A stretch of DNA of 27,996 bases. Source: a virus. Every line of letters starts with the position of its first letter. Position 1 is the stretch's first letter. The notes under the pieces were generated by a model that had not been told where the DNA came from, ran no database searches, and saw nothing but the letters and a program-made list of their open reading frames with translations. Of the stretch, positions 1,685 to 27,996 are shown piece after piece. Both the position numbers and the translations under genes were made by a program. The stretch is taken from positions 1-27,996 of the IMG/VR virus record IMGVR_UViG_3300044678_000134. The stretch is one strand, 5' to 3'.

Positions 1685-2000
1685 CCGATCTGTCAAGCAC
1701 AACCGATTCTACCGCTTGAGGGTAGAGGCGTATCTTGACAGCGGAAGTTCCATCCTTCTTTTCGTAGGTTGCTAGTTTGGCATTGCCAGTAATAGTTACT
1801 CGAGTGCCCTTCTCGGCAGTGAGTAACCAACCGAATTCTGAAGATGCGTCTACTGAAACATCAATGTAGTCACGGCTAACGGTTTCCCATTTGCCCTGTT
1901 CGTTCTTCTTCCGGTTAGCGTGGGTAACGGTTACAACCGAACCCCAATCGAATGTTTTGGCTTCTTCTACAAAGCCAGTAAATGTGAGCGAGAGTGCCAT
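1671..2000 (-). CDS. ssb: Single-stranded DNA-binding protein (OB fold)
   Basis: A 109-residue SSB-like protein that would coat ssDNA during replication and recombination. It shows an OB-fold style sequence: alternating beta strands (SLTFTGFVEEAK, SVVTVTHANRK), a WETVSRDYIDVSV strand, and GTRVTITGNAKLATYEKKDG, which resembles the SSB G-x-L-x-x-x-x-W/Y-x-x-x-D-G segment. The C-terminus SDAPF is the short acidic-proline-phenylalanine tip by which SSBs recruit partners. It lacks the long glycine/glutamine linker of bacterial SSBs. The ATG at 2000 has a weak GGAAA upstream. It is directly followed by, and overlaps, the resolvase gene. An ACCGAAT motif lies inside it at 1830. Confidence 0.8.
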   Translation of the reverse strand: MALSLTFTGFVEEAKTFDWGSVVTVTHANRKKNEQGKWETVSRDYIDVSVDASSEFGWLLTAEKGTRVTITGNAKLATYEKKDGTSAVKIRLYPQAVESVVLDRSDAPF

Positions 2001-2012
2001 GTGTAGGTTTCC

Positions 2013-2276
2013 TTATCTTTCAATGTGCTCGGGATTTACGCAATCTAGCATTCCACAGATTCTGTTTCCTGGCAAGATGGGTTCCCCGAGTTCGTTTAGT
2101 GGTGTCACTAAATCTGGTGCAAATCTGCCATGCCACGGGATGCATTTCAGTTCCCCCGTGTTGACAGTTGTAGATCTTCTGGTGCGACAGGATTGGCAAA
2201 ATACCTTGGCCTTTCCTCGCTTCTTGATGACATCCCAAGACATGCCACAGCGGTAGCAGGTTTCCCTTTCCCACAC
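2013..2276 (-). CDS. Small zinc-binding HNH-like protein
   Basis: An 87-residue cysteine-rich protein. Pairs C7/C10 and C27/C30 form a zinc ribbon; the C-terminal part has C45 (LKCIPWHGRF), then ICGMLDCVNPEHIE with C74, C79 and H84, resembling the end of HNH nucleases where C-VNP-x-H holds the metal. Similar WHGRF...CVNPEHI proteins are common small genes of actinophages. It lacks a full catalytic HNH, so it may only bind zinc or nucleic acid. The start is a GTG at 2276; a stop codon lies in frame a few codons upstream, and the nearby ATG at 2278 is in another frame. Confidence 0.65.
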   Translation of the reverse strand: MWERETCYRCGMSWDVIKKRGKAKVFCQSCRTRRSTTVNTGELKCIPWHGRFAPDLVTPLNELGEPILPGNRICGMLDCVNPEHIER

Positions 2277-2310
2277 ATAACTAGGCTAGTTGCCTTTACT
2301 GGAAAAGTCG

Positions 2311-2730
2311 TCATTTCATCCTCAGTAGTGTCGCTTGGGCTATAGGCACGGCTATAAACCTCTCGGCTGTCGTGTAAATCGTGTCCTTGACAATAACAGG
2401 GGCCTCTGACATTTGTAGGCCGTCTATGAGCAAAGCCCATGACCAGTCATCGTTTAGCATCCAGAAGATGTTTAGCTTTGAGGGCTTGATGAATTTTCTC
2501 TTTCGCTCCGAGAAGTGCACTGCCTCGTAGGGGAACTTCTGTCCCTTCCAGTTGTGCTTCACCTCCACCTCGATTTCAAAGAAGTTTTCATCCTTCTCGG
2601 CGTAAACATCTATGCCGTATTTGTCAGGGTTTACCCATGCGTCATAGTCCCGAGACTTTAGATAGTTCACGACTAGCTCTTTGGCAAAGTCGTTTTTGTC
2701 GAACAGGTCTTGGCTGAACTTCTTGGTCAT
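2311..2730 (-). CDS. PD-(D/E)XK nuclease-like protein
   Basis: A 139-residue protein that looks like a single-domain PD-(D/E)XK nuclease. After an N-terminal helix (DFAKELVVNYL) come D41 in YGIDVYAEKD and the E56-V-K58 of EIEVEVKHNW, the spacing expected for this metal-dependent active site. A following FPYEAVHFSERKRKF segment and an NIFWMLNDDWSWALLI strand complete a plausible fold. Such genes sit among phage replication genes and could act in recombination or host DNA degradation; the substrate is unknown. Start and stop overlap the flanking replication gene as ATGA. Confidence 0.65.
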   Translation of the reverse strand: MTKKFSQDLFDKNDFAKELVVNYLKSRDYDAWVNPDKYGIDVYAEKDENFFEIEVEVKHNWKGQKFPYEAVHFSERKRKFIKPSKLNIFWMLNDDWSWALLIDGLQMSEAPVIVKDTIYTTAERFIAVPIAQATLLRMK

Positions 2731-3473
2731 AGCCCTAATCGTCTCTTGAGCTCTGGGGTGAGTGGGACTGACCTCTTCGCCAGCTCTTCCATCTCCCGAA
2801 TGTATTGCTGACTAGCCTCAACTTCTTTTTTCCGGCGTGCTTCGTTAGCAGCCTTGACTTCGGGCAGTGTTGCAGCGTTCTCCCAAGAATCAGCATTTAG
2901 CCATGAGGCAGGGTATTTCGTGTATTCAGGCTTTCGTGTCGGATCGTTCTTGTAGGCGATAACCCCAGCGAGTATGTCCTCGAACTTAGCTCTTTTGAGA
3001 GCTGACTTGAATGCTCTAAAGGCTGCTCCCTTGTCTAGCCGTCTTGGATATTCCTTCCAGAATTCTTTGAATAATTCCTCATGCGTGTTAATAGGTTCTT
3101 GTAATGGTTCTATAAGGGTTTGCACGCCATCTGCTGTCACCCCTGACGCTCTATTTGTCACCCCTGACTGCGATTCTGTCACCCCTGAGACCGAATCTGT
3201 CACCCCTGGCAGGTTGACCCAGTATCGGTTGGACTTGTATTGACCGCTAGTCGGAGCGTTCTGAACCTCGACTATCAGCTCGCCAATCTTCTGCAAATAC
3301 TGGATGTCCCTCTGCACACTACGCTCTGAGGAATTGACCATCTGAGCCAGCCTTCTGATTGAGGGCCAAGCTCCTATCTCGCCTTGGTGATCTGCAATAG
3401 CCAAAAGCACTAGCCGTGCCCTGCCATCGGACTTAGATTCCCGCCATACGGCATTCATAATTTCAATGCTCAA
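2727..3473 (-). CDS. Winged-helix replication initiator/replisome organiser
   Basis: A 248-residue protein with an N-terminal winged helix (residues ~5-75: VWRESKSDGRARLVLLAIADH, PSIRRLAQMVNSSERSVQRDI), as in helix-turn-helix phage replication proteins. A linker at 90-115 repeats a seven-residue unit (SGVT at 97-113), encoded by a 21-bp DNA repeat. The C-terminal part has FKEFWKEYPRRLDKGAAFRAFKSALK (137-163), a segment I associate with phage O-like/organiser proteins. By analogy it would bind origin repeats and recruit a helicase; no helicase is in the window. The TTG at 3473 follows AAGGA with nine bases between and gives the usual MSIEIMNAVW start; an ATG at 3458 would trim five residues. 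Confidence 0.75.
   Translation of the reverse strand: MSIEIMNAVWRESKSDGRARLVLLAIADHQGEIGAWPSIRRLAQMVNSSERSVQRDIQYLQKIGELIVEVQNAPTSGQYKSNRYWVNLPGVTDSVSGVTESQSGVTNRASGVTADGVQTLIEPLQEPINTHEELFKEFWKEYPRRLDKGAAFRAFKSALKRAKFEDILAGVIAYKNDPTRKPEYTKYPASWLNADSWENAATLPEVKAANEARRKKEVEASQQYIREMEELAKRSVPLTPELKRRLGL
3061..3208. other. Candidate replication origin: four 21-bp-period iterons plus AT-rich stretch
   Basis: Within the replication gene the + strand word GTCACCCCTG starts at 3136, 3157, 3178 and 3199, an exact 21-bp period (two helical turns). The 12-mer TGTCACCCCTGR is conserved in all four copies while the bases between them differ. Next to it, 3061-3120 has only 19 G/C in 60 bases. Direct repeats beside an AT-rich stretch inside an initiator gene is the classic layout of lambda-type and lactococcal phage origins. 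An ACCGAAT motif lies between the third and fourth repeats. Coding constraint alone (four SGVT units) does not require identical codons, but a peptide-level repeat remains possible. Confidence 0.55.
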
Positions 3474-4452
3474 TTTCGACCATCCTTACCGCCTGTGGTA
3501 ATGTCACTGAGTGCATTGACCCCTCCTTCTGTTGTGTGCTAGATAGTTTGTCTGTAAAAATGTCACTTACGGTTGGTGTTGGAAAATTCACTTGTCCCCC
3601 CCTAGCAGGTATGGGCATGCCCTCAAGCAGCATCCTAAGTGCCAGCTCAGCCTGTTGTGGAACGACACCGTTACCACATGCTTTTAGTTCTTCGTTTCGG
3701 GTCAAACCGACATCTGTTATCCAGCCCTCGGGAACGCCCATCATCCATTCTGTAAAGCGACTAGAGAGCCTGTGAGCACCTTCTTTGCCATCGGGCTTCG
3801 TAGGGGCCGGTGCAGGTCTGCCCAAGACTTGCTCCCATCTACGGATTGCAGGTTCAAACTTGCCCCAGTTTGTTCCTGACACTTCACCACTATTGAAGAT
3901 TGCTCTAGCCACGGTGTCTACCTGAACTACACCATCACGTTTGTGTTCAGCCGTGCCATCTTTGTGGTCACGAGATGCGGGGGTGGGCATCAAGTCATTG
4001 ATTACTGTTTCCCTGACATTTGCATGCCCGCCTTTTGACTTATCAATCTTTGATGGGTCTCGTGCGGGTAGGTGATCCATGGTGTTAGGAGTAGGCATAA
4101 GATTCATCTGCACTCTGCTTACGGCTTCACCGTTTAGCTTTGCGATGTCTATTGCTTGGTCACGGATACCTACAGTGTTGCCACGAGCTCTAGCGGTCTC
4201 CTCACCGAGTGCTCCGCCTTCTCCCTGACTAGCTGTTGGGGAACGCAGTAATGAAGATTCTGAAACGCTGGTGGGGTGCTCCGGCATCGGAAGCTCGAAC
4301 ACCTGCCCATTTCGCATCAAACCCGAGATCGGCCAAGTCCCCAAGAACGGCTCCCATTGCTCGAATAGGGTGTCCGTTCCCGATGACTGCCAAATCTTCT
4401 TCTGAGTATTCCATTCCATTGTCGGCTTTAGCTGAGAGTAATCCTCTGACAT
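3463..4452 (-). CDS. Cytosine DNA methyltransferase, C-terminal part (target recognition, motifs IX-X)
   Basis: About 329 residues from the ATG at 4452. The second half has the closing region of C5-cytosine methyltransferases: WGKFEPAIRRWE, LSSRFTEWMMGVPEGW and NEELKACGNGVVPQQ (motif X). Between are repeated LMPTPNTMDHL / LMPTPASRDHKDG segments typical of phage methylase target-recognition regions. It overlaps the N-terminal frame by about 220 bases. A +1 shift at CCCC 4238-4241 would join both into one ~440-residue enzyme with motifs in normal order. If translated alone from 4452 it would start without a clear ribosome site; its first 70 residues (FLGTWPISGLMRNGQ) also look protein-like. On its own it lacks the catalytic and cofactor motifs. 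Confidence 0.7.
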   Translation of the reverse strand: MSEDYSQLKPTMEWNTQKKIWQSSGTDTLFEQWEPFLGTWPISGLMRNGQVFELPMPEHPTSVSESSLLRSPTASQGEGGALGEETARARGNTVGIRDQAIDIAKLNGEAVSRVQMNLMPTPNTMDHLPARDPSKIDKSKGGHANVRETVINDLMPTPASRDHKDGTAEHKRDGVVQVDTVARAIFNSGEVSGTNWGKFEPAIRRWEQVLGRPAPAPTKPDGKEGAHRLSSRFTEWMMGVPEGWITDVGLTRNEELKACGNGVVPQQAELALRMLLEGMPIPARGGQVNFPTPTVSDIFTDKLSSTQQKEGSMHSVTLPQAVRMVEIEH

Positions 4453-4786
4453 TTTCAATAACTACCAATCTTGGTCGGATTTCGTCAATCGCCCTAGCAA
4501 ACTCCGACCATAGCCCGCTGCGAGTTCCTTCTGTTAGTCCTGCCCGCTTGCCCGCTAAGGACAAGTCCTGACATGGAAAGCCACCCGTAAGTATGTCTAC
4601 GGGTTCGAGTTTTGTAAAGTCAACTGCTCTGACATCTCTGTAGTTAGGAACGCCAGGAAAGTTCTTTTCAAGAATCTTTGATGGAGCATCTTCCCATTCG
4701 CAATGCCAAGCAACAGTTGCACCTGTCACCTTTGCGACTGCTAAGTCAAGCCCTCCGTAACCAGAGAAAAGCGAACCTATCTTCAC
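4229..4786 (-). CDS. dcm: Cytosine DNA methyltransferase, N-terminal catalytic part
   Basis: 185 residues carrying the first half of a C5-cytosine methyltransferase: motif I FSGYGGLDLA (7-16), the catalytic GGFPCQDLS with C72 (motif IV), VVIENVRGLL (motif VI, 108-117) and GAPHQRFRIF (motif VIII, 169-178). Such phage enzymes modify the phage's own DNA against restriction. The frame stops at 4229 just after ITAFPNS, before the target-recognition domain, which continues in the +1 frame. The enzyme is therefore either split, expressed by frameshift, or interrupted by a one-base error. The start ATG at 4786 overlaps the upstream gene. Confidence 0.85.
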   Translation of the reverse strand: MKIGSLFSGYGGLDLAVAKVTGATVAWHCEWEDAPSKILEKNFPGVPNYRDVRAVDFTKLEPVDILTGGFPCQDLSLAGKRAGLTEGTRSGLWSEFARAIDEIRPRLVVIENVRGLLSAKADNGMEYSEEDLAVIGNGHPIRAMGAVLGDLADLGFDAKWAGVRASDAGAPHQRFRIFITAFPNS

Positions 4787-5004
4787 GCTGTAAGGCTCAC
4801 CTTCTCAAAAGCTTCACGAGCGTTCTTGTCCCTTGCTCCGCCAGCCCATCTGCCAGCGTGAAAGAAAAGTTTTTTGACCGAATCTAAGCGTTGCTGTTGG
4901 AGAAGTTTTTTCTTCTCTTCCTCAAAATTCAGATTCTGTGCTTCTTCGTTTTCTATCGCTATCGCCCGCTGTCTCATCCGCAAGGCTAAGTCCTCGCAAT
5001 TCAT
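4783..5004 (-). CDS. Hypothetical charged protein
   Basis: 73 residues, unrecognised. AGAAGGAGG five bases before the ATG at 5004 makes the start secure. The sequence is almost wholly helical and charged: MRQRAIAIENEEAQ, NFEEEKKKLLQQQRLDSVKK, then KLFFHAGRWAGGARDKNAREAF. The first 55 residues could form a short coiled coil. It overlaps the HNH gene by 83 bases and the methyltransferase by four. It contains an ACCGAAT motif at 4877 read as D-S-V. Location suggests a role linked to modification or recombination, but that is guesswork. Confidence 0.65.
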   Translation of the reverse strand: MNCEDLALRMRQRAIAIENEEAQNLNFEEEKKKLLQQQRLDSVKKLFFHAGRWAGGARDKNAREAFEKVSLTA

Positions 5005-5317
5005 GTTTGCCTCCTTCTAGGTCTAATACATACCAGATGCCCGAGCACTTATCAAGTAAGGGGGCCTCTGTTGTTTCATATCTGCTCAGCTTGTGTCCGT
5101 CTAGCCGAGCTTCTTTCGCTACTTCGGCATCTGCCTCCATAGCAAAGTTGTAGTTATGGCAGACAAGAATCAGATTGTCTACCCGATCTAACGCCTTTGA
5201 ACCTCCCGAGCCACGGTTGATACGGTGATGCGGAACTAGGTCAATTCCAGTCCCACAGTGCCAGCACCAGGCATCCCGCTTTAGCAGGGCATCCCGAAGC
5301 TTTTTTGAGAGGGTCAC
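4922..5317 (-). CDS. HNH endonuclease
   Basis: 131 residues with an HNH nuclease core: C18-x2-C21 (WCWHCG), the histidine pair in LVPHHRINRG (30-31), DNLILVCHNYN with C53 and H54. The four cysteine/histidine ligands and HH...N...H layout match HNH proteins with a structural zinc. The C-terminal 70 residues are unusual for a minimal HNH (KCSGIWYVLDLEGGKHEL) and may be a separate small domain. The GTG start at 5317 overlaps the previous stop as GTGA. It lies among recombination genes rather than next to terminase, so it may be a free-standing or homing-type nuclease. Confidence 0.75.
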   Translation of the reverse strand: MTLSKKLRDALLKRDAWCWHCGTGIDLVPHHRINRGSGGSKALDRVDNLILVCHNYNFAMEADAEVAKEARLDGHKLSRYETTEAPLLDKCSGIWYVLDLEGGKHELRGLSLADETAGDSDRKRRSTESEF

Positions 5318-5640
5318 AGGTTGATGTCCATTTGCATCAGCTTGGCTTGTGTCCCAGCAGCCATCAGAGCCGTTTCTAGGGCCTTTATTTTGACCTTTAT
5401 ACGATTCACCTTAGCCCGAGCTAAATCACGCTCTAAACGGGCTTGAGAGGCTTCTAAGCGGCTAATGGCAGTGCGGTCTGCAACCGTGCCCTGAGACCGA
5501 ATAAAAGCCTTCTGTTCAAGGGTGTCTAAATCGAACTCTTTTTGGGCTAGGTCTACCTCAGCCTGATAAAGGGCATCAGCTCCCTTATTGTTCTCCGCCG
5601 TCAGTTCTGCGATCTGCTTGGCTATCTCCGATGGATGCAC
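5314..5640 (-). CDS. Coiled-coil hypothetical protein
   Basis: 108 residues, helical almost throughout. Heptad-like spacing is visible from EIAKQIAELTAEN through DLDTLEQKAF and LEASQARLERDLARAKVNRIKVKIKALETAL, so a long coiled coil is likely. No catalytic motif. The GTG at 5640 has GGAG seven bases upstream and overlaps the gene before it by 56 bases. An ACCGAAT motif lies at 5496 in the I-R phase. It may be a structural or regulatory partner in the recombination cluster; no family is recognised. Confidence 0.65.
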   Translation of the reverse strand: MHPSEIAKQIAELTAENNKGADALYQAEVDLAQKEFDLDTLEQKAFIRSQGTVADRTAISRLEASQARLERDLARAKVNRIKVKIKALETALMAAGTQAKLMQMDINL

Positions 5641-5812
5641 TTAGCTGCTCCATTCGCTCAAGCATGTTGATACGCCAGATTTCACTTTCCTCTGCCAGCT
5701 TTCGGCTTAGCAGTAACTGACCCGATTCCCTCGCCCGCTGCTGTTTCATCAAACAGTCCTGATATGCTTCCTTCAGTTCCTGAAGGCTTGCTGCCTGTAT
5801 CTGGTAGAGCAT
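5585..5812 (-). CDS. Small hypothetical protein overlapping the annealing-protein gene
   Basis: Up to 75 residues if it starts at ATG 5812 (AAAGGG three bases upstream); an internal ATG at 5749 with AGGA seven bases upstream would give about 54. Residues after 22 look genuine: MKQQRARESGQLLLSRKL, then EESEIWRINMLERMEQLS, a charged amphipathic helix. The longer form shares 131 bases with the end of the putative annealing protein in another frame. That stretch encodes a low-complexity glycine-rich tail in the other gene, so the internal start is attractive. No function recognised. Confidence 0.45.
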   Translation of the reverse strand: MLYQIQAASLQELKEAYQDCLMKQQRARESGQLLLSRKLAEESEIWRINMLERMEQLSASIGDSQADRRTDGGEQ

Positions 5813-6296
5813 TAGCCCTTTCCTTTATGTAATCCAGCACGGAAGTAGTTACTCTTTTCGCCTTGGCTTGTGCCCAGAGGCTACGGAGTGCTTCCTTGTC
5901 ATTCAGGCTATCAGCATCAGCCTTCCAATCTCTTTCGCCCATCGAGCTAAGAGCTTCTACGGCATTGAACTTCTCTACCTTCTCCATCTCCTCACGGCTT
6001 GGCCTTTTGAGGCCCGAGTAAATGTAGTTGGCAAGGCAGCGACCAATCGAACTGGTCTCACATCGTTCAAGAGCAAATGGGTCTGAGTTAGCCTCACTTG
6101 CCCAGCCAGTTGTCTTAGGCAGGTCTGTTGCCTGATCTCCGGCGGTTAAGTAGAGCCGTGTCTCAATCACCCATAACGATGAATCCTTGGTGTGGTTAAC
6201 GGTCACGATACGGGCATCCTTGTTTTCCTCGTCTGCCCAGAAACTGCGAAGTCTCTCTTCAACAGTTGCATACTGTGATAAATCGAATCTAGCCAT
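5682..6296 (-). CDS. Putative ssDNA-annealing (ERF-like) recombination protein
   Basis: 204 residues with a strong start (AGGAGG six bases before ATG 6296). The N-terminal ~110 residues resemble actinophage proteins found next to YqaJ exonucleases: FDLSQYATVEERLRSFW, ARIVTVNH, a VIETRLYL strand, then ALERCETSSIGRCLANYIYSG, close to the ETSAIGRALA signature of ERF-type annealing proteins. The C-terminal third is low in complexity (TGSKPSGTEGS) and ends with basic KPKAGRGK. Immediately downstream of the exonuclease, it would supply the annealing half of a Red-like pair. The annealing role is inferred from context and the short signature; the family could be a different conserved early protein. 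Confidence 0.6.
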   Translation of the reverse strand: MARFDLSQYATVEERLRSFWADEENKDARIVTVNHTKDSSLWVIETRLYLTAGDQATDLPKTTGWASEANSDPFALERCETSSIGRCLANYIYSGLKRPSREEMEKVEKFNAVEALSSMGERDWKADADSLNDKEALRSLWAQAKAKRVTTSVLDYIKERANALPDTGSKPSGTEGSISGLFDETAAGEGIGSVTAKPKAGRGK

Positions 6297-6305
6297 TGCT
6301 TCCTC

Positions 6306-7187
6306 CTACTTGTGAATCACTAGATAAGGCACGCCATCTCTGCGGGCTTGCCTAGTTGCTACTTTGATTTTCTGTCCATCTTTCAGAACAAAACCTGTCT
6401 TTGCGTATTGCATTGTGTCAAGAACCATTGATTTCAGCAAGTTGACTTGCGACTGAGATTCCTCGAGCATTGCCTGAGCGTTCTTGAGCTGTAGTCCCAA
6501 AGTCCCCAGCTCTACCTCCGTATCGTCAATCTGCGGGTGCTGTTGTCGAACTGTCTGGTAGGTGCTCTCTGATCCATCCCATTCAGGGCGTGTGCCATCC
6601 GTGAGGCTCTTGTGAAACATCGTGGCGTAGTCAGCCTGGGTGAGCTGAACAAACTCATCAGCTTCGACCTCATACTCAAACCAGTCCATGCCGGCGACAG
6701 CTACGACAATCGCCTTACTCACGCCCATTACATGCATGTAGTGCTGCACCTGACAGGCATAGTGTGCGGGTAGAGCATCCCAGTTGTAGCGAGCTGTCTT
6801 GACCTCTATGACAATCCACTCGCCAGTCTCTTTGTTACGAGCCATTGCGTCAGGGTTTGCGTGCATGAATTCAAACTCTTTAGACACGAATGATCCTGCA
6901 CGGTAAATCTCTAGCTCAGGGTGCTGTTGACCGAATAGCTTGAGGATGGGCTCCTCGAAGGCTTTGCCCAACCGAATTGCCCAGTTCTCTTGGAAGCTGT
7001 TGGGGATAAGTTCTAGCTTCTTAGCCCATAGTGTGTAGGCACTCTCCCATGGGTTTAGCCCCATGATTGTGCCTATCTCTGACCCGCCGATTGAGTGCTT
7101 GCGGGCCTCGTGCCACTCAGGGCTGTCTGATTCAAAGTTTCCCAGGTGTGTAGCCTGTGGAAAGTTCTCGGGTGTTACATATTCCAA
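6306..7187 (-). CDS. YqaJ-type viral recombinase / lambda-like exonuclease
   Basis: 293 residues of the YqaJ family, 5'-3' exonucleases that resect DNA ends for single-strand annealing. Visible landmarks: EWHEARKHSIGGSEIGTIMG (24-43), WAIRLGKAFEEPILKLF (69-85), the catalytic NPD at 111-113, IEVK at 127-130, and QVQHYMHVMG at 146-155. The last 80 residues include a helical LKNAQAMLEESQSQV stretch. The start is a TTG at 7187 five bases after a perfect AGGAGG. It is the first leftward gene after the divergent WhiB-like gene; with the annealing protein, SSB and RusA it makes a complete phage recombination set. ACCGAAT motifs fall at 6930 and 6971. Confidence 0.88.
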   Translation of the reverse strand: MEYVTPENFPQATHLGNFESDSPEWHEARKHSIGGSEIGTIMGLNPWESAYTLWAKKLELIPNSFQENWAIRLGKAFEEPILKLFGQQHPELEIYRAGSFVSKEFEFMHANPDAMARNKETGEWIVIEVKTARYNWDALPAHYACQVQHYMHVMGVSKAIVVAVAGMDWFEYEVEADEFVQLTQADYATMFHKSLTDGTRPEWDGSESTYQTVRQQHPQIDDTEVELGTLGLQLKNAQAMLEESQSQVNLLKSMVLDTMQYAKTGFVLKDGQKIKVATRQARRDGVPYLVIHK

Positions 7188-7188
7188 T

Positions 7189-7217
7189 TTGTCCTCCTAT
7201 GACTTAGTGACTAACAT
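7189..7217 (+). promoter_or_regulatory. Possible promoter of the WhiB-like gene
   Basis: TTGTCC (7189-7194) and TAACAT (7212-7217) are 17 bases apart, each matching four of six positions of the vegetative -35 and -10 boxes. Transcription would start near 7224, giving a very short leader that includes AGGTGG. The match is modest and the same bases also hold the AGGAGG of the divergent exonuclease gene, so coincidence is possible. Confidence 0.3.
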
Positions 7218-7236
7218 ACACATAGGTGGTGACATT

Positions 7237-7491
7237 TTGAAAGAATCTCAGAAGAAATACATGAAGCTCCAGTGGGCAATCAAGAAGAATGGCGGGGTTG
7301 TCTGTGAGCAAGTGCCTCACATTTTCTTTCCCGAAGATTCCTATAACACCGATAACGGCTACTTTGCCGAGAAGAAACTTGCCCTAAAGATTTGTTCCCA
7401 GTGCCCTGTTCAGCAGCTTTGTGCTGATTATGCAATGACGGCCCGTGAGCCCTACGGCATCTGGGGTGGCACTACTCCTACTGACAGATAA
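7237..7491 (+). CDS. WhiB-like iron-sulfur transcription regulator
   Basis: The only + strand gene. From TTG 7237 it is 84 residues with the four Wbl cysteines C23, C53, C56 and C62 (VVCEQ...ICSQCPVQQLC) that hold a 4Fe-4S cluster, then GIWGG at 74-78, the turn that contacts the principal sigma factor. Wbl proteins are confined to actinobacteria and their phages, which is the main host clue. AGGTGG lies seven bases before the TTG; an ATG at 7261 would shorten it by eight residues without losing any motif. The open frame extends upstream to 7063 but that part is antisense to the exonuclease and is not coding. Divergent placement between early and late modules suggests control of the early-late switch or of host sigma-dependent promoters. 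Confidence 0.88.
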   Translation: MKESQKKYMKLQWAIKKNGGVVCEQVPHIFFPEDSYNTDNGYFAEKKLALKICSQCPVQQLCADYAMTAREPYGIWGGTTPTDR

Positions 7492-7558
7492 GCGAAACCC
7501 CCTAGGGAAGAACCTAGGGGGCTTCTGCTAACTAACTAGAAGGAGAGCAACACTCTCA
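7491..7558 (-). ncRNA. Candidate small structured RNA or early leader (three abutting stem-loops)
   Basis: On the - strand three perfect stems lie back to back: GAGAG/CTCTC (7553-7557 with 7543-7547), CTTCT/AGAAG (7538-7542 with 7522-7526), and the 9-bp CCCCCTAGG/CCTAGGGGG (7513-7521 with 7498-7506), followed by TTTCGC. A promoter 6-8 bases before the first stem predicts a 5' end at about 7557. The transcript would be ~65 nt if it ends after the third stem. The segment between stems 1 and 2 is pyrimidine-rich (CTCTCCTTCT) and could pair with a ribosome binding site. Alternatives: a leader of the leftward early operon, or simply the 3' untranslated end of the WhiB-like mRNA. Confidence 0.45.
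7498..7521. terminator. Perfect 9-bp hairpin, likely terminator
   Basis: CCCCCTAGG (7498-7506), loop GAAGAA, CCTAGGGGG (7513-7521). It begins seven bases after the WhiB-like stop, so it may end that rightward mRNA, though the downstream + strand bases (CTTCTGCT) are not a good U-tract. Leftward it is followed by TTTCGC. It could act in both directions. Confidence 0.6.
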
Positions 7559-7563
7559 AGATA

Positions 7564-7591
7564 AGTATACGACTAACCGAATGTTTGTCAA
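7564..7591 (-). promoter_or_regulatory. Strong leftward vegetative-type promoter
   Basis: On the - strand TTGACA (7591-7586, perfect -35) is followed after 16 bases by TATACT (7569-7564, five of six to TATAAT). This is the best promoter I see in the window. It sits just after the late-operon terminator and points to the structured RNA and, beyond the WhiB-like gene, the early operon. Its spacer contains the only intergenic ACCGAAT (7576-7582). Confidence 0.65.
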
Positions 7592-7621
7592 ATAAGAAAC
7601 CCCCGCCATTTAGACGGGGGC
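7590..7621 (-). terminator. Rho-independent terminator ending the late (structural/lysis) operon
   Basis: On the - strand CCCCCG (7620-7615), a nine-base loop and CGGGGG (7605-7600) are followed by TTTCTTATTT. It lies about 70 bases after the last lysis gene, and no other leftward gene intervenes, so it closes the rightmost transcription unit. Confidence 0.7.
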
Positions 7622-7691
7622 TACTCGGCTTAGCTAGGAGGCTTATGGACAAGCGAACAAGGATGTCGAATAACAGCCGAGCAAGACTAGC

Positions 7692-8751: not shown

Positions 8752-8753
8752 GA

Positions 8754-9002: not shown

Positions 9003-9022
9003 GTTTTTATTCTACCTGTTCT

Positions 9023-9559: not shown

Positions 9560-9561
9560 GT

Positions 9562-11248: not shown

Positions 11249-11255
11249 GATTTCC

Positions 11256-16310: not shown

Positions 16311-16315
16311 CTTCC

Positions 16316-16713: not shown

Positions 16714-16722
16714 TTTTGCTCC

Positions 16723-17136: not shown

Positions 17137-17147
17137 TTTATCTCCTT

Positions 17148-18145: not shown

Positions 18146-18160
18146 GCTTTTATTCTACAG

Positions 18161-22018: not shown

Positions 22019-22025
22019 AGTCACA

Positions 22026-22071
22026 GTGTATAAAAAGAAACCCACCCAAGCAACCTACAACTTGGGTGGGT
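22026..22071 (-). terminator. Strong rho-independent terminator after the capsid gene
   Basis: On the - strand ACCCACCCAAG (22071-22061), a ten-base loop, and CTTGGGTGGGT (22050-22040) make an 11-bp perfect stem followed by TTTCTTTTTAT. It starts 20 bases after the major capsid stop and separates the highly expressed capsid message from the glycan cassette. Confidence 0.88.
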
Positions 22072-22091
22072 CTCGCTTATTTCGTCAGAAA

Positions 22092-23252
22092 CTAAGCAGC
22101 GTTTCCGATGAAGTATTTGACATGGGAGCTGTGAGTGATGTCACCGTCAAGGCGAATCAAGAATCTCCATGTGGTCAGATCGGTGTTGAATGCGAAGTCC
22201 TGGCTAGAAGCAACCTGGATTCCACCTGCTACACGAACCTTGTATGACGAGAGGTCACCGAACAATACAGACTTTGCCGAAAGGCCAGTGTCCGCCATGT
22301 GTGGGTTCTCGATTACACGGAAGCCAGCGAAGGTGTCAGGGTAGCCAACGCCTACCTGGTATAGGTAGTTGCCAGCGGTGTCCTTGAGCTTACGCATCTT
22401 TCCGATGGTTGCACCGTTTGCCATGAATGCTGCACCTGGCATACGGCGAACTGCACCGTCAACCGAGTAAGCAAGGTCAATTAGGTTGTCAGCGGTGAAC
22501 TGGCCTGTTACGGCAGTTCCACCAGTGATACCAGAACCAGCAGCAGGAACAATGCCTCGTGGCTTGTCAGATCCGTCACCTAGGGTTAGAACATTGTTCA
22601 CACCGTAACCAATGCCGTTACCAGCCTGGTTAGCAAGGTGAGAAGCTAGGTCAAAACCAGCGTCTGTTACTAGCTCGTTGGCGGCCTGGATGAGGAAGCC
22701 ATACTTGTAAGCTCCGAGAGTGATTGAGCTGTAGGTAGGCTCGGAAGCCGATACAGTTCCACCAGCGGAGGTCAAGGTAGCAGTGCTGTAGGCAGTTAGG
22801 GTTGGGATGGTTAGGTCTTCACCGGAAGTGGTGTTGATAACCTCTGGAACCTCTAGCATTGGGCCTACTAGGCGAGCAACATCGAATACCTGGTCGTAGA
22901 ACGACTTAGGAACGGTGTTGGATGATGGAGTTAGAGCAGCACGAGTGAACTCGTAGTTACGCTCTTCTCCCTTGGCAAGTGAACGGAAAATGTCAGCGGC
23001 TGAACGGCTTTCGCTCACCGATGGAACAAATCCCTTAGCAGCAACGGAAGCCTCTAGGCGGCGTTCCTCGTTACGCTGTGCGACAGCAATGGTCTCGTCA
23101 GCCTTGCGGATGTCGGCCTCAATGCGGTCAATTTTCTCAAGTTCAGCAGCGTCAAGCCCACGGCCTTCCTTCTCAGCACCTTCGATTACATCTCGAATCT
23201 GCTCAGTGAGGTTGGCACGGAGCTCCTGCTGAGCCTTTACAAACTCAGACAT
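22092..23252 (-). CDS. Major capsid protein (HK97 fold)
   Basis: 386 residues of the HK97 family. The first ~100 are a charged helical delta domain (LRANLTEQIRDVIEGAEKEG, KIDRIEADIRKADETI), normally cut off by the prohead protease and acting as scaffold. The mature part has LGAYKYGFLIQAANELVTDA, QAGNGIGYGVNNVLTLGDG (the segment around the E-loop/spine) and GFRVIENPHM near the A domain. A very good ribosome site (AAAGGAG) precedes ATG 23252. A long 158-base leader upstream and the terminator downstream fit a high-output transcript. No ACCGAAT motif occurs in this gene, only one ACCGAAC at 22257. Confidence 0.92.
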   Translation of the reverse strand: MSEFVKAQQELRANLTEQIRDVIEGAEKEGRGLDAAELEKIDRIEADIRKADETIAVAQRNEERRLEASVAAKGFVPSVSESRSAADIFRSLAKGEERNYEFTRAALTPSSNTVPKSFYDQVFDVARLVGPMLEVPEVINTTSGEDLTIPTLTAYSTATLTSAGGTVSASEPTYSSITLGAYKYGFLIQAANELVTDAGFDLASHLANQAGNGIGYGVNNVLTLGDGSDKPRGIVPAAGSGITGGTAVTGQFTADNLIDLAYSVDGAVRRMPGAAFMANGATIGKMRKLKDTAGNYLYQVGVGYPDTFAGFRVIENPHMADTGLSAKSVLFGDLSSYKVRVAGGIQVASSQDFAFNTDLTTWRFLIRLDGDITHSSHVKYFIGNAA

Positions 23253-23411
23253 TTAGTCTCCTTTATTTCTCTTACTAATGATTTACCAGTGGCGTTGACG
23301 CTCAACTGAACACGGCAGAGCTAACTCACATCCGATAGTAAAAGTTTACAGGAGGTAGGACACGCTAGACATAGCAAAGCCCCCTGAACCAAGAAAACAG
23401 GAGGCTAGTGC
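23253..23411 (-). promoter_or_regulatory. Leader region upstream of the capsid gene
   Basis: The only sizeable gap in the head module. It starts (leftward) with an imperfect hairpin, GCCTCCTG / CAGGGGGC (23405-23378, one mismatch) followed by TTTGC, probably a weak terminator, then a palindrome GTAAAAGTTTAC at 23339-23350, then a possible TTGAGC/ATCATT promoter pair, then the ribosome site. No single element is strong enough to call alone, but a separate capsid promoter or processing site here is likely. Confidence 0.35.
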
Positions 23412-23618
23412 TTACCGCTTTTCAATAGGTGCGGTGACCCGTGTTTCTCTATTGGTCTTGTCAAAAGCAACTTCAACAGTTTCTTCTGGCTTCAGAAGCT
23501 TCTCTACTGCCTTAGCCATGTCATCTACAACCGAAACGATTGCACCTGATTCAGGGTTTCCAGCAGCAGCTAGGAGAGCCTTTTTGATTTCTTCTTTGCT
23601 TGGCATCTTAGATTCCAT
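23412..23618 (-). CDS. Small head-module protein
   Basis: Up to 68 residues from ATG 23618, or 64 from ATG 23606, which follows the protease stop (TAAG ATG). Helical first half (KEEIKKALLAAAGNPESG; VVDDMAKAVEKLL), then an acidic beta-like part and a basic end (RVTAPIEKR). Unrecognised. Placed between protease and capsid, it could be a scaffold-like or decoration protein. The alanine-rich helix and small size give no more. Confidence 0.6.
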   Translation of the reverse strand: MESKMPSKEEIKKALLAAAGNPESGAIVSVVDDMAKAVEKLLKPEETVEVAFDKTNRETRVTAPIEKR

Positions 23619-25200
23619 TCAGTAGTAGTTCGAGCTTCTTCTTCTTCAGTGCCAGCATAGCCTGTCCAACCGAATTATCGCTAGGCTCTGATCCCTCTGA
23701 CTTTGGCATCAGGGTTTCTACGGCTTGCTGAATTAGACGACCCTCATCCTCGGTAAGAGTTTCGCCTTCCTCAAGTTTGTAAACAGCATCTGCTAGAGCA
23801 TCAGCGTCAATGTCAGCTCTCTTAGCAATCTTGTCTAGGCCACGAACAGCAACAGTGCCAGCCGTAGCGGTATATGCTGGCCAGCTAACCAAGGAGACCT
23901 CGAATAGACGAACCGAATTCAAGGTTCTCTCTGAGCCATCCTCTGACCATGAATCTCCTCCAGCAGGAACACTAAAGCCGAAGCTCATTGCGTCAACATC
24001 TCCACGGCGTAGCAGCTCAGCAACATCACGACCACGAGAAGTGTTCGGTAGTAGACCATCAACCCTCAAACCTTTGTCATCTTCTGTAAGCATAAGAGTT
24101 CCAGCACGAGTTGAGCCAAGAACCTCGCCAGCATCGTGATTCCAAAGGAACTTGATGTCATTGCGAGCTCTCAGGGATTTGCGGAATGCACCTGGTGCGA
24201 TTCTCTCGATAAAAGGCAGGGGCTCACTAGCAGAATTGAATACAGCAGCGTAGCCACTGAATCTCATGCCATCGCCTTCTTCACGAACCTCGATGGAGGT
24301 TGGAGTTCTGCGTGTTTCTATCTTTGACAATGCTTCGCCTTTCGCTCGGCCTTCATTTTCTTCTTCAATTCTAGCAACTACACCTTCTGCATAAGTGAGT
24401 GCTCGTTGTGCTGCTCTCTTTGATGGGCCTGATCCCCAAAGCAAGTGTGCAACTACACCAGGGCTAGGATAATCAGGCGAATCAGGTCTTGCGGCGGGAC
24501 TATCCAAATCAGGAAGATGACGAGCAATCCAAGCCCGAATCCTAACCCATTTATCAGCAGTGACATTGCCAGCTGCCATCGCTCTCGCCTCACGGATTGT
24601 TCTTTCAACCAAGCCATCTCCGCCATACCCCTCTTCGTAGTATTTGAGACCTCTACGAGCTGCTGCTCGCATGTAGGCTGGGGGCTCTAGCTTTACTTCT
24701 CGGTATTCTGTTTCAGACATGGAGTTTTCTTCCATATCGTCATCTTCTTCTTCATCTTCTGGTTCATCACTGGGTTCAGGAAGTGGAGCAATCTTTGTAA
24801 GTGTGGAGAACTTGTGGGCAACATACACATCCGTATCTTCCCATCCGTCTCTGACTGGCTGGTATACCTGAATCAAGGCAGCAGGGTCTTTTTCCGTGCC
24901 ATTGACTGTAACCGAAGAATTAGGTGGATTGATAGATCCGTTGTCTACAATCTCTTGAATTTCGCCACGAGCCCTACCACCCGAAGAGTTCCAAGATACA
25001 TAGTCACCGACTTTGAGGTCACCTGGTAATGCACGAATGTCTCTTTCGCCACCTGGCTCAATGCCTTCTGATAATGAGATAGCTACCATCTGGTCAAGTG
25101 CTTCTTTTTTGGTGTTGTGGCAAGCCATGACTTCGCCATCTTCTTTGACTACTGCCCAGCTTGAGCATTCTGAAGATTTGTCAGTTATGTAATAGGGCAT
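23608..25200 (-). CDS. Prohead protease with two extra N-terminal domains
   Basis: 530 residues in three parts. Residues ~55-145 (LKVGDYVSWNSSGGRARGEI ... VYVAHKFSTLTKI) look like a small SH3/Tudor-type barrel of the DUF2945 kind. After an acidic linker (DEPEDEEEDDDMEE), residues ~165-285 (AAARRGLKYYEEGYGGDGL, WVRIRAWIARHLPDL, VAHLLWGSGPSKRAAQRAL) form a domain I know from other phage protease or portal fusions. Residues ~295-460 are the U35 HK97-type protease with the catalytic histidine in LWNHDAG and serine in MSFGFSV. It should cleave the capsid delta domain. Usual proteases are ~200 residues, so this is more than twice the norm. ACCGAAT at 23669 and 23912. Confidence 0.85.
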   Translation of the reverse strand: MPYYITDKSSECSSWAVVKEDGEVMACHNTKKEALDQMVAISLSEGIEPGGERDIRALPGDLKVGDYVSWNSSGGRARGEIQEIVDNGSINPPNSSVTVNGTEKDPAALIQVYQPVRDGWEDTDVYVAHKFSTLTKIAPLPEPSDEPEDEEEDDDMEENSMSETEYREVKLEPPAYMRAAARRGLKYYEEGYGGDGLVERTIREARAMAAGNVTADKWVRIRAWIARHLPDLDSPAARPDSPDYPSPGVVAHLLWGSGPSKRAAQRALTYAEGVVARIEEENEGRAKGEALSKIETRRTPTSIEVREEGDGMRFSGYAAVFNSASEPLPFIERIAPGAFRKSLRARNDIKFLWNHDAGEVLGSTRAGTLMLTEDDKGLRVDGLLPNTSRGRDVAELLRRGDVDAMSFGFSVPAGGDSWSEDGSERTLNSVRLFEVSLVSWPAYTATAGTVAVRGLDKIAKRADIDADALADAVYKLEEGETLTEDEGRLIQQAVETLMPKSEGSEPSDNSVGQAMLALKKKKLELLLNGI

Positions 25201-26033
25201 TATGCCAGCCTCGCTTCCACGACAACAGTTCCACCGAGTGCGACAGCCGTGCCGTTTATTGTGATACCTGCGGCATTTACATCAATGCCAACAGTTTGAG
25301 TTCCTGAGTTGTAAGTAATCGGAGAAGTAGCAGCAACTACTCCAGCGGGGCCTGTCGCTCCAGTTGCTCCTGTTGCACCTTGGATACCTTGTGGCCCTTG
25401 TGGCCCCGTTTCTCCTTGAATACCTTGAGGCCCCTGCGGCCCTGTCTCTCCTTGAATGCCTTGAATACCTTGTTCGCCCTGTGGCCCACTAGCACCAGTT
25501 TCCCCCTGTATGCCTTGTGGCCCTTCTGGGCCTGTTTCACCTTGTGGGCCTGTCGGGCCAGTGTCACCCTGAATACCTTGAATTCCTTGCTCACCCTGTA
25601 GCCCTTGTGGGCCAGTCTCGCCTTGAGGGCCAGTCGCCCCTTGGATACCTTGCTCACCCTGTGGGCCCTGTGGCCCCGTTGCACCTGTTGCTCCCGTTGC
25701 ACCAGTGGCTCCAGTAGCACCGGTTGCACCCGTTGCACCTTGAATACCTTGTGGGCCTTGTTCTCCCCTTGGAATGACAAAGCTAAGAGTTTGATTGGGT
25801 GCAGTTCCAGAAACTGTTACCTCAGCGTCTCCGCCTGGAGCACTTGCTGTAACCGAATCTATAGTGAGCGTGTTAGCTGGGCCAACTGCTCCCTGAATAC
25901 CTTGAATGCCCTGCGGGCCAGAGTTGCCTAAAGTTACGGTTGTGTTGGTTTCAGTTACGCCAACATTTACAACCGAATTTTGAACCGAAACAAGTGTGTT
26001 TGTTTCAGTAATCTCTAGGACAGAGGCTGACAT
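25200..26033 (-). CDS. Collagen-like repeat protein in the head module
   Basis: 277 residues. N-terminal ~38 residues repeat [12 protein letters not shown] / [12 protein letters not shown], a possible attachment or beta-spiral. After a short GPQ/GIQ block and a beta linker come about 46 continuous Gly-X-Y triplets (residues ~90-228; [15 protein letters not shown]), then a ~45-residue C-terminal beta domain ([17 protein letters not shown]), likely the trimerisation head. It would form a triple-helical fibre. Such proteins are usually tail fibres; here it lies between portal and protease, suggesting a head fibre or decoration. Starts and ends overlap neighbours as TAATG. Confidence 0.8.
25350..25766 (-). 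repeat. Gly-X-Y coding repeat array
   Basis: The DNA encoding the collagen-like stretch is a low-complexity direct-repeat region of 9-bp units and multiples; on the + strand words such as CCTTGAATACCTTG and GGCCCTTGTGGCC recur with small changes. Length variation by slippage or recombination is expected between relatives. Confidence 0.75.
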
Positions 26034-26377
26034 TACCGAGTGACCTCAGCTTGGATTTGGAAAGTTCCCTGAATCAGTCTTGTAACAGTTGAACCAGAGT
26101 TTAGCTCTAAATCGTAAACATACTGCCCTGCTTCTGCTGCACCCATAGCAGTTGCACCGATTGTCACGGCGATTGTGCCGGCAGTTCCACCGAGTGTGAT
26201 ACCAGTGCCGTTGGTCAGGCTAAAGATAGTTGCGGTTGCTGCTGGAGTAGTGCGAACCTGCATAGCAGCCGTGTAGTTTGTCAGATTGACAGCCGAACCA
26301 CCGATTGTCCAAGTCAGGTTTAGGTCGTATGTTGCACCTTGGTATGCCGTGATGTTGTATCTGCCTGGGTTGATCAT
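26033..26377 (-). CDS. Conserved small beta-sandwich head protein
   Basis: 114 residues from ATG 26377, which overlaps the previous stop as TAATG; an ATG at 26398 would add seven. Beta-rich with [57 protein letters not shown] and a closing [10 protein letters not shown]. This pattern (lTgYtArmqvR ... G.Y.YDLel ... G...v..EVTR) is widespread in phage structural clusters and resembles adaptor domains that dock fibres or decoration proteins. Its place directly before the collagen-like gene suggests the two work together, perhaps as base and shaft. Confidence 0.65.
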
Positions 26378-26640
26378 TAGATTGTCTGCCTCATCCAACT
26401 AACATTGTGTCCGTTTTTAGTGCTTACACAATAGATTTGTTCTAGGGGTTGTAATTGAAATTGATAGCTCTCAAGCTTTACAAGTTGTAGCCCAGTGCTT
26501 ATTGTTACACCACTTCCACCAAGATAAACCTCAGCGGTGTTGTCGTTATTGTGAATGGTAATTATTGATGGATTAGTCCATACACCATCAATAGCAGTGG
26601 CCACGGTTCCAACTGAAGTTGTGCCATTGCTAATTGCCAT
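26377..26640 (-). CDS. Small beta-rich head protein
   Basis: 87 residues: MAISNGTTSVGTVATAIDG, PSIITIHNNDNTAEVYLGG, then GVTISTGLQLVKLESYQFQL and QIYCVSTKNGHNVSWM. The IHNNDNTAEVYLG...GLQL pattern recurs in small phage structural proteins. No metal or catalytic site. It overlaps the portal stop by 11 bases. Function unknown; a decoration or fibre-base protein is possible. Confidence 0.6.
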   Translation of the reverse strand: MAISNGTTSVGTVATAIDGVWTNPSIITIHNNDNTAEVYLGGSGVTISTGLQLVKLESYQFQLQPLEQIYCVSTKNGHNVSWMRQTI

Positions 26641-27996
26641 CTTCTACCCCGTAAGTTTCTTTGACAGCTGCTGGGTCTTGTGACTGACCGGCATTCTGCA
26701 ACTGAACGCTTGGAACGCCAGTGTGATCAATAGCAGGTAGACCGAGTTTCTCCAGAGCGTCTACTGGGTCGAATCCAACCTGAATCAATCTCTGAGCCAT
26801 GTCTACTCGTTCTGTCTGAGCAGATAGGTCGGCGGCATCAATGTTGACATTGGCCAGAGGCACACGAACAGTGTCGGCTGACGGATCCATGATTGGTGTC
26901 AAGTCCTCAAGTCGTCTCACATCGTTGATTGTCAAGAAGCCAGCTTGTAAACCAGTCGAAAATGCAGCCATTCTTGAGTTGATGTCTGCACGAAGTAGGC
27001 CATCAAGGTTGAACCGAATAAATGCGTTCTCTCCACCTGGGTAGCGAGCCATTAGCGGTGATAGTGCACCTTCAATCTTCTGAACGATTGGTCGGAGGCA
27101 GTGAGTTACCCAAGCAAGGTTGTTCTGCTCGACTGATGCATAAGAGTTTGTGCCTGGTAGTCCAAGTAGGTGTGGTGGAATGTTGAAAGCACGAGCAACA
27201 TCTTCAACAGCCATTCTGCGGCTGTCTAGGAACTGAGCTTGGTCGTTTGGCACATTAGTTGGCTTGTATTTCGCTCCGCCCGACAGGATTGCTGTCTTGT
27301 GTGCCTTTGCCCATCCCTTGTGGCGTGAATCGAATGCTTCTTGCATGACCTTGGCTTGATCTGCCGTAAGGTTGCCGTCAATCTCGATGACACCAGAGGT
27401 CTGAGTGCCTGAACCGAAGAATTTAGCTGCATAGTTTTCTAATGCCTTAGCTAAGCCGAAGTTTTCCTTCAGTGCTTCTACTCTTGACACTCCACGGATG
27501 TGTCCTGGGCGAACTACATCGGGAATAAAGACAATCTCATCTGAAGAGAGCATTCTCTTCTCTTCTTTGATGACAAAGCCGACCTGACCGATGCCATTGC
27601 GTTTGATTTCGACATCCATCGGGTTTAGAACTGTCATGTTGACAATCTCGCCTGACGAATTTGAATACAACCGAATAAATGCGTTTCCGTCTAGGAGTAG
27701 CGAGACAATGATTGAGCCGTAGAAGGCTTCTTTGGTTGTGTCAACATCTGGCTTGGTAATCCATGATGGTCTTGGGCGGAAAGCAAAGCGAGCACCATCT
27801 CTGCGGATGTAAGCATCTACGGGTAGTGTCGAGATTGTGTCGCTGATGAGCGAGACAGCGGAAAAGACCGGATTGACATGCAAAGCAGTGCCAGAATCAA
27901 TCCTGACCCCAGCGTTGCTCTGAGTTTCTAGGAAGTCACCAGATCCCCAGATGGTTTGAAACGAGATTGCTCGTTTTTCAAATAATCTACTAAGCA
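26630..27996 (-). CDS. Portal protein (HK97 family), 5' end just outside window
   Basis: 454 residues readable; the frame is open to the window edge. The last two bases in coding direction are TG followed by CTT AGT AGA, so the start is probably an ATG whose A is one base beyond the window, giving MLSRLFEKRAISFQTIWG, a typical portal start. Landmarks: HVNPVFSAVSLISDTISTLP, LLLDGNAFIRLYSNSSGEI, FIPDVVRPGHIRGVS, ALENYAAKFFGSGTQ and DVARAFNIPPHLLGLPGTNSYASVEQNNLAWVTHCL, all conserved in HK97-type portals. It forms the dodecameric DNA gate at the capsid vertex. The terminase should lie immediately to the right. ACCGAAT at 27013 and 27670. Confidence 0.92.
   Translation of the reverse strand, partial: LSRLFEKRAISFQTIWGSGDFLETQSNAGVRIDSGTALHVNPVFSAVSLISDTISTLPVDAYIRRDGARFAFRPRPSWITKPDVDTTKEAFYGSIIVSLLLDGNAFIRLYSNSSGEIVNMTVLNPMDVEIKRNGIGQVGFVIKEEKRMLSSDEIVFIPDVVRPGHIRGVSRVEALKENFGLAKALENYAAKFFGSGTQTSGVIEIDGNLTADQAKVMQEAFDSRHKGWAKAHKTAILSGGAKYKPTNVPNDQAQFLDSRRMAVEDVARAFNIPPHLLGLPGTNSYASVEQNNLAWVTHCLRPIVQKIEGALSPLMARYPGGENAFIRFNLDGLLRADINSRMAAFSTGLQAGFLTINDVRRLEDLTPIMDPSADTVRVPLANVNIDAADLSAQTERVDMAQRLIQVGFDPVDALEKLGLPAIDHTGVPSVQLQNAGQSQDPAAVKETYGVEDGN

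Follow-up and report, generated by a model that had tools for sequence, protein, structure and literature searches.

What keeps a short, asymmetric word in a single orientation along a phage genome, and what reads it? The question is raised by IMG/VR virus record IMGVR_UViG_3300044678_000134, classed as linear, whose entire 27,996 bp are analysed here and called the window below. A sequence-only reading had reported that the heptamer ACCGAAT recurs on the plus strand and is missing from the minus strand, and all of its counts proved exact on recount. ACCGAAT occurs 28 times on the plus strand, at positions 1830 to 27670, and ATTCGGT 0 times; the hexamer ACCGAA occurs there 50 times (next base T 28, C 8, A 7, G 7) and TTCGGT once, at 24044. 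AACCGAA is equally strong (30/0). The coding sense of the window is the minus strand, and the motif is best written ATTCGGT(T/C), with the core TTCGGT. Chi is the textbook case: a short sequence that governs at what point, and in which orientation, an end-processing nuclease stops. At a probability that we place just short of even, we propose that ATTCGGT(T/C) is a Chi-like, one-orientation DNA signal for the phage's own recombination module and, as tentatively, that selection on density keeps it at about 1 to 2 TTCGGT cores per kb.

The copies lie as follows; the genes named in the list are described further below.

1830..1836, plus strand, ACCGAAT
3190..3196, plus strand, ACCGAAT
4877..4883, plus strand, ACCGAAT
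5496..5502, plus strand, ACCGAAT, inside c6
6930..6936, plus strand, ACCGAAT, inside the exonuclease gene
6971..6977, plus strand, ACCGAAT, inside the exonuclease gene
7576..7582, plus strand, ACCGAAT, the only copy outside the listed leftward open reading frames (ORFs), between the converging 3' ends of whiB and the holin gene
8316..8322, plus strand, ACCGAAT
8468..8474, plus strand, ACCGAAT
12082..12088, plus strand, ACCGAAT
12661..12667, plus strand, ACCGAAT
13021..13027, plus strand, ACCGAAT
13466..13472, plus strand, ACCGAAT
14654..14660, plus strand, ACCGAAT
16196..16202, plus strand, ACCGAAT
18078..18084, plus strand, ACCGAAT
18990..18996, plus strand, ACCGAAT
19080..19086, plus strand, ACCGAAT
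20301..20307, plus strand, ACCGAAT
20712..20718, plus strand, ACCGAAT
21839..21845, plus strand, ACCGAAT
21977..21983, plus strand, ACCGAAT
23669..23675, plus strand, ACCGAAT
23912..23918, plus strand, ACCGAAT
25852..25858, plus strand, ACCGAAT
25972..25978, plus strand, ACCGAAT
27013..27019, plus strand, ACCGAAT
27670..27676, plus strand, ACCGAAT
587..27418 (range), plus strand, 22 further ACCGAA copies (next base C 8, A 7, G 7)
Starts of these further copies, first half, plus strand: 587, 1936, 7750, 7994, 8023, 10251, 11763, 14494, 15053, 15219, 15877
Starts of these further copies, second half, plus strand: 16490, 17017, 17215, 19448, 20976, 21128, 22257, 23530, 24911, 25984, 27413

The enrichment and the polarity are independent of codon and amino-acid choice. 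TTCGGT, TTCGGTT and ATTCGGT are the top three 6- and 7-mers of the record under an order-2 Markov null, and also under a synonymous shuffle. In 2000 synonymous-codon shuffles of 8808 codons, ATTCGGT averaged 3.5 ± 1.6 copies with a maximum of 11, against 28 observed, and TTCGGT averaged 9.4 with a maximum of 21, against 50 observed, so that both counts far exceed anything that codon-preserving shuffling produced. The 49 copies inside listed leftward ORFs are spread over the three codon phases (18/9/22), as had been reported. Words that differ from the core by one base show little or no polarity in the window, and none of them exceeds about twice the count that the Markov model predicts. Little information is present in the flanks past one base on each side, the spacing looks irregular, and every 4-kb bin of the window contains 4 to 10 sense copies. 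One detail of the sequence-only reading had to be corrected: the copy at 7576, which it placed in an intergenic promoter, is flanked by the 3' ends of two converging genes, whiB (7063-7491) and the holin gene (7692-7889), and is therefore outside any promoter.

The antisense hexamer is mildly depleted, with 1 copy against 6.5 expected, a value reached by 21 of the 2000 shuffles; the absence of the antisense heptamer is not significant, as 557 of 2000 shuffles also give 0. This depletion would suit one-orientation avoidance of a Type III/ISP restriction system requiring head-to-head sites, a role that had been suggested for the motif. The main effect, however, is the 8-fold sense excess, which is not a product of avoidance, and many motif-rich relatives hold several antisense copies. 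Avoidance also leaves unexplained the link to exonuclease type described below, and the window's own methylase is a C5 enzyme. We regard this explanation as very improbable.

Individual sites turn over. Pontimonas phage phiPsal1 and 80 loci retrieved through capsid similarity show anything from a strongly polar motif to none, intermediate states included; in phiPsal1 it is not enriched. The 13 gene pairs shared by relative L048 and the window (9.9 kb, 66% nucleotide identity) contain 16 and 20 motifs, respectively, of which 2 are co-located, the level expected by chance. Among 13 far relatives, with each window site counted once per relative, the site is retained in 28 of 153 site-by-relative comparisons, where other CpG hexamers would predict 24.5. 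Close relatives L009 and L023 hold 23 of 27 sites (background 59%, p 0.003) and 12 of 13 (background 66%, p 0.03), and in the comparison with L002, within one species, 33 of 33 sites are common to both. Selection seems to act on density and orientation and not on single sites, because positions turn over at the background rate while the motif stays frequent; Chi behaves likewise. Such turnover with density kept argues against site-specific operators, repeats and protein-coding causes. An origin in codon usage, amino-acid content, a dispersed repeat or common ancestry would account for the copies common within a species and for the part of the excess that codon use gives in some rich relatives. 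It is refuted for the window by the synonymous shuffles, the three codon phases, the scant flanking information and the turnover, and we assign it next to no probability. The polarity extends beyond the window, as equal orientations were seen in 0 of 7 longer contigs of motif-rich relatives.

The genes that the motif might follow include the following.

6306..7187, minus strand, YqaJ/RecE-like 5'-3' recombination exonuclease (exo), 293 amino acids, the proposed reader (PF09588, E 1.1e-21; phrog_434)
5682..6296, minus strand, c4, 204 amino acids, possible single-strand annealing protein (phrog_11717, which has no assigned function)
5314..5640, minus strand, c6, 108 amino acids, helical by the look of its sequence, the alternative reader
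7063-7491, plus strand, WhiB-like regulator (whiB), divergent from the exonuclease gene
2727-3473, O-like replication protein (RepO)

The AlphaFold model of the exonuclease (pLDDT 88) matches LHK-Exo with Z 18.4 and lambda exonuclease with Z about 17 over residues 10-221. With fold and profile both matching, the predicted protein is assigned to the lambda-exo/YqaJ family. For the c4 model the highest-ranked matches are to human RAD52 (Z 8.0), on a par with those to dsRNA-binding domains (Z 7.5); c4 may be an annealase, judging from its place beside the exonuclease. The sole clearly rightward gene of the window is whiB, and of 141 exo-bearing contigs, 118 have a member of its cluster on the strand opposite to exo and upstream of it.

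Motif presence follows the exonuclease rather than the phage backbone, with c6 an equally good fit and with few transitions. Contigs were labelled rich or poor from raw sense density and polarity, uncorrected for codon use, with intermediates dropped; the cut-off for rich, at first 0.9/kb, was relaxed to 0.6/kb after the density counts of exonuclease-fetched contigs were known. In the first set of trees (rich at least 0.9/kb), the label changes 3 times on the exo tree (61 rows) and 7 times each on the RepO (63 rows) and capsid (64 rows) trees. Among 54 dereplicated contigs carrying all five early genes (27 rich, 27 poor), exo requires 3 changes, c6 4, c8 7, c4 11 and RepO 13, where shuffled labels average about 18 with minima of 11-14 (200 shuffles). 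The 0.9/kb threshold gives nearly the same result (52 contigs, 25 rich: exo 3, c6 4, c8 7, c4 11, RepO 12), and 32 contigs ascertained through RepO (12 rich) give exo 2, c6 3, RepO 7, c8 7 and c4 8. In other sets exo needs 4 changes against 8 for whiB, 10 for holin/M23 and 11 for c4. Contigs ascertained through exo alone (28, 23 rich) fail to separate the genes (exo 1, c4 1, c6 2, RepO 2, c8 3). The reader is thus most likely the exonuclease or c6, because these two need the fewest changes (whiB 8, holin/M23 10, c4 11); from the trees they are inseparable here.

The same association is seen along a gradient of exonuclease identity, for which 80 loci were fetched by similarity to an exonuclease alignment headed by that of contig L260. 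All 51 further contigs whose exonuclease is at least 62% identical to that of L260 are polar by at least 2:1 and hold at least 0.6 copies/kb, with 42 at 0.9/kb or above (pooled, 471 sense and 48 antisense in 382 kb). Where identity is at most 56% (18 contigs), one reaches 0.6/kb, none reaches 0.9/kb and four are polar (pooled, 38 sense and 61 antisense in 182 kb). On an exo tree of 58 rows, clade A (21 rows, bootstrap 100) comprises 20 rich and 1 intermediate contig, and clade B (28 rows, bootstrap 86) 0 rich, 25 poor and 3 intermediate. The loosely supported clade C, which holds the window, includes the rich contigs L422, L290 and L259 besides the window, and L411, L414 and L409, which are poor by threshold. 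Two long outliers are split, L266 being rich and L286 poor. Clade A pooled has 255 sense copies against 79 expected by codon use. Over full contigs, 7 of 7 with a clade A or C exonuclease are polar in the coding sense (e.g., 44/4 and 21/1), and 0 of 9 with a clade-B exonuclease are strongly so, the nearest being G804 (12/5).

At about residues 227-231 the window exonuclease carries an LG insertion (VELGxLG vs VEIDxL), where the long C-terminal helix of the model starts. Of 83 rich contigs 82 carry it (the remaining one is incomplete at this place), as do 13 of 54 poor ones (9 L286-type, 4 L259-like); many contigs are near-identical copies, so these counts are not independent events, and most contigs are fragments. 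Within mixed RepO groups at 20% distance, all 8 contigs that carry the insertion are rich and all 9 that lack it poor, and in three mixed groups at up to 30% distance the figures are 46 of 47 and 27 of 27; widening the grouping to 40-50% adds 10 poor contigs that have the insertion. The insertion marks the clade and is at most a candidate for the reading element. A set of 12 related contigs (L276-L278, L280, L282-L289; 127 kb) contains zero coding-sense TTCGGT, and the nine with a scored exo carry the insertion. By gene presence and absence, clusters exclusive to rich contigs are small and mostly limited to near relatives of the window. A family of 67-86 amino acids with a conserved LYFHAGR...GGARD (e.g., L246:2196-2405) lies near exo in 33 poor and 2 rich contigs, and also occurs in other rich contigs.

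Other words and more distant phages were also recorded. A hunt for unrelated phages by spaced triple patterns, scored in 600-bp bins with 7 loci counted over the full contig, returned 78 and 68 stretches, none at the window's density; its sensitivity is low and absence is not implied. Several of these stretches hold local motif clusters. A few triple-pattern phages are moderately polar for ATTCGGT, at a lower density than the window: G403 (L171) with 10/1 in 34 kb, G404 with 1/10 in 38 kb and G409 (L161) with 0/13 in 47 kb. Clade-A contigs such as L376, L381 and L379 show a second polar variant, ATTCAGT (87/9 vs 26/9 expected, 20 contigs pooled). TTCAGT outnumbers TTCGGT in L381 (16/2 and 7/3); in L306 it has 14 sense and 0 antisense copies beside just 5 TTCGGT, and is not among the top words after codon shuffle. 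The window is without TTCAGT polarity (14/10). L041, L042, L049 and L050 are enriched in GGATC-containing words on both strands, which are non-polar (L041: GGATCTC 17/11, GGATCA 30/25). TGGTGG(T), which resembles part of the E. coli Chi word, is strongly polar beyond the synonymous shuffle in L248, L251 and L300; this polarity may come from glycine-rich repeats. No strong polar motif was found in Propionibacterium phage PFR1, which has a distant YqaJ exonuclease.

How could such a signal work? We infer that the exonuclease is the reader, that DNA is the substrate read and that pausing is the step affected. The motif would be read by the exonuclease together with the possible annealase c4 and with c6, as Chi is by RecBCD/AddAB. 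An exonuclease entering a double-strand end and resecting one way would pause at the motif, fall off, or hand over to the annealase, and one entering from the opposite end would not respond. As a result, one end of the linear or concatemeric phage DNA would be spared or made into a recombinogenic 3' tail. A precedent is that lambda exonuclease pauses strand-specifically at GGCGA, for which slowed digestion from one end in vivo has been proposed (review PMC7496540).

Several observations weigh against this proposal. Only about 3 to 4 independent transitions are present on the exo tree, and portal and TerL, with tape measure, also need only 2 to 3 changes, on smaller sets (35 to 44 rows). RepO is partly linked as well, its 13 changes being at the low edge of its own shuffles (minimum 12). 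Some rich relatives exceed their own codon shuffle just 1.5 to 3 fold. The L286-type exonuclease (9 poor contigs, apparently one species) has the LG insertion and no motif, and within clade C L409 (1/2), L412 (2/1) and L414 (2/0) are poor, with L411 (7/1) polar and below threshold. Three clade-B contigs show the opposite skew, sense/antisense, of 3/23 (G801, L408), 8/21 (G802, L413) and 7/17 (G800, L405), which is partly codon use (66 antisense vs 49 expected in group B1). Clade-B exonucleases yielded weaker polar words and no polar motif of similar strength. In the lambda left arm GGCGA occurs 52 times, within what codon choice alone gives (46 ± 5.6), so lambda itself shows no such behaviour. 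Finally, c6 tracks the motif as well as exo does, with 3 to 5 changes across sets, and the nearest-neighbour regression does not single out exo. At distances of 0.1-0.2, c6 (0.80-0.85) beats exo (0.50-0.56), followed by c4 (0.42-0.55), c8 (0.29-0.38) and RepO (0.21-0.23). At 0.3-0.4 the values are 0.31/-0.36 for exo, 0.29/-0.28 for c6 and 0.46/0.56 for c4, so c4, which tracks the motif poorly on trees (11 changes), beats both when neighbours are more than 30-40% away.

The fit of c6 also bears on a second explanation, in which the motif acts at the level of RNA or of transcription (AUUCGGU), as a stoperator-like, antitermination or mRNA-stability element bound by c6 or a WhiB/helix-turn-helix regulator. 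Such a role is conceivable because almost all genes in motif-rich contigs run one way, which confounds strand and transcript, and the stoperators of Cluster A mycobacteriophages, whose motifs differ along with the repressor, offer a parallel (PMC6550527). However, the sites move in diverged relatives and occupy all codon phases, and the neighbouring whiB gives a tree with 8 changes, twice the 4 of exo. In their few reversed ORFs the rich contigs keep the motif on the genome strand, 7 vs 1 in 10.7 kb, although these ORFs are doubtful and four of the seven copies belong to one ORF in near-identical contigs. An RNA-level reader is, on balance, unlikely.

The third explanation turns on the host. 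From its gene content, the window is assigned to an HK97-type siphophage, with the following genes besides those listed above.

26630-27994, portal
23608-25200, head maturation protease
22092-23252, major capsid protein
12473-15553, tape measure (weak match)
7692-7889, leftward, r1t-type holin, with an M23 peptidase also encoded
3463-4458 and 4229-4786, both minus strand, C5 cytosine methylase split over two overlapping frames

The split of the methylase may reflect a frameshift or an assembly error; 4229-4786 contains the N-terminal part of PF00145, and 3463-4458 matches the methylase PHROG. A weakly SSB-like protein is also encoded, and no immunity repressor was identified in the window annotation. 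The nearest named relative in the phage collection is phiPsal1 (protease 62%, capsid 66%). The host is probably an aquatic Microbacteriaceae, because the genome collections searched gave close capsid relatives only among the phage contigs of one Microbacteriaceae metagenome-assembled genome (MAG). Three of the four phage contigs in that MAG are rich and polar (ATTCGGT in coding sense: L082 5/0, L083 3/0, L323 9/0), and the fourth (C78) is not clearly so.

A host factor, such as an AdnAB-like end-processing or defence nuclease, might read the motif, with exonuclease type merely marking the host group. Adjacent pairs of ORFs of about 1000 amino acids with PDDEXK_1 domains, AdnAB-like and not told apart from AddAB, are present in 7 of 9 Microbacteriaceae. 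The portal and TerL trees need few changes too, and phages can over-represent a host signal more than the host does (Bobay 2013, PMC3784561). The sampled chromosomes do not bear this out. ATTCGGT is at its Markov expectation in 20 pooled Microbacteriaceae pieces (54 vs 58.4), in the DNA of the MAG with rich phage contigs (48 vs 44.8), and in G086 (50 vs 42.9) and G149 (29 vs 28.9), the two of the 20 closest to the window in tetranucleotide use; in the three genomes tested singly (the MAG, G086, G149), sense and antisense counts are about equal. One strand of the window holds 16 copies of ATTCGGTT in 28 kb; the densest of 394 actinomycete genomes, with both strands counted, has about one every 14 kb. 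A match to RecC was found in 0 of 20 Microbacteriaceae genomes, some of them incomplete. Exchange between rich and poor phages is more frequent for RepO, c4, whiB and holin/M23 than for exo, which is hard to reconcile with separate hosts. We judge a host reader somewhat unlikely. An apparent host enrichment, with ATTCGGT above a reversed control in most genomes and strongly in many, was rejected; it was gone under the order-3 Markov model.

These chromosomes also bear on general host signals. Over-representation in the host chromosome, as for Chi, was not seen in the sampled genomes, from which the true host may differ. The FtsK-orienting polar sequence (KOPS) suggested by the sequence-only reading would require host enrichment, and none was seen in the sampled genomes by overall counts, as distinct from leading-strand skew. 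The strong host enrichment of a DNA uptake sequence was likewise absent from the Microbacteriaceae and the 394 actinomycetes. A general host Chi, KOPS or uptake sequence is unlikely, because the sampled actinobacterial chromosomes and phiPsal1 are unenriched. The Chi-like polar signal that had been put forward thus stands as the best-supported class of explanation, but not in its host chromosomal form, given the unenriched sampled hosts and the tracking of exonuclease type.

Returning to the phage's own recombination module as the proposed user of the motif, a broader statement seems possible, though we hold it with less assurance than the proposal itself: phages with YqaJ/lambda-exo-type recombinases may carry, written across the genome, a code that orients the exonuclease they encode and that would be the viral equivalent of Chi. 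Such a code might, with similar reserve, be phage-read, density-maintained, and gained or lost with exonuclease type, and might serve self-recognition by making one end resistant or recombinogenic. Whether lambdoid phages enrich or avoid the host's Chi depends on the recombination genes that they carry (Bobay 2013, PMC3784561); here, in contrast, the cognate enzyme appears to be the phage's own. A literature search found no earlier Chi-like over-represented motif for a phage exonuclease, with subscription journals mostly outside its reach, and novelty is unproved. If the proposal is true, exonuclease-plus-annealase recombinases would be directional and self-recognising in vivo, changing the current view; the strand-specific pausing of lambda exonuclease in vitro would gain a use, and oriented stop signals for recombineering enzymes could follow. 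Whatever the reader, it is unusual as an evolutionary signal that a polar motif under selection for density should track one or two genes more closely than the genes beside them.

Among known systems, Chi (GCTGGTGG for RecBCD, with equivalents for AddAB) resembles the phage motif in being short, asymmetric, over-represented and position-independent, with orientation and density as the features that count and DNA-end processing as the setting. It differs in that the phage motif is unenriched in the sampled hosts and follows the phage's own exonuclease type, in a likely host family where RecC was not matched; any effect of the phage motif on an enzyme is only proposed. Phage T7 has all of its EcoP15I sites on one strand, which is explained by avoidance of head-to-head pairs. 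The window shares the one-strand placement, but avoidance predicts neither the 8-fold excess nor the link to exonuclease type. The pausing of lambda exonuclease at GGCGA (Perkins et al. 2003, as cited in the review PMC7496540) is a strand-specific sequence effect on a phage 5'-3' exonuclease of the same nuclease fold family. There the motif is another one and is unenriched in lambda, whereas that of the window is spread over the whole record and its pausing is only proposed. The stoperators of Cluster A phages are asymmetric, genome-wide and mostly in one orientation relative to transcription (PMC6550527). The window motif, too, has one orientation relative to transcription, and both occur in actinobacteriophages; stoperators, however, are read by the immunity repressor, whereas the sites of the window turn over and follow exo and c6 better than the neighbouring whiB.

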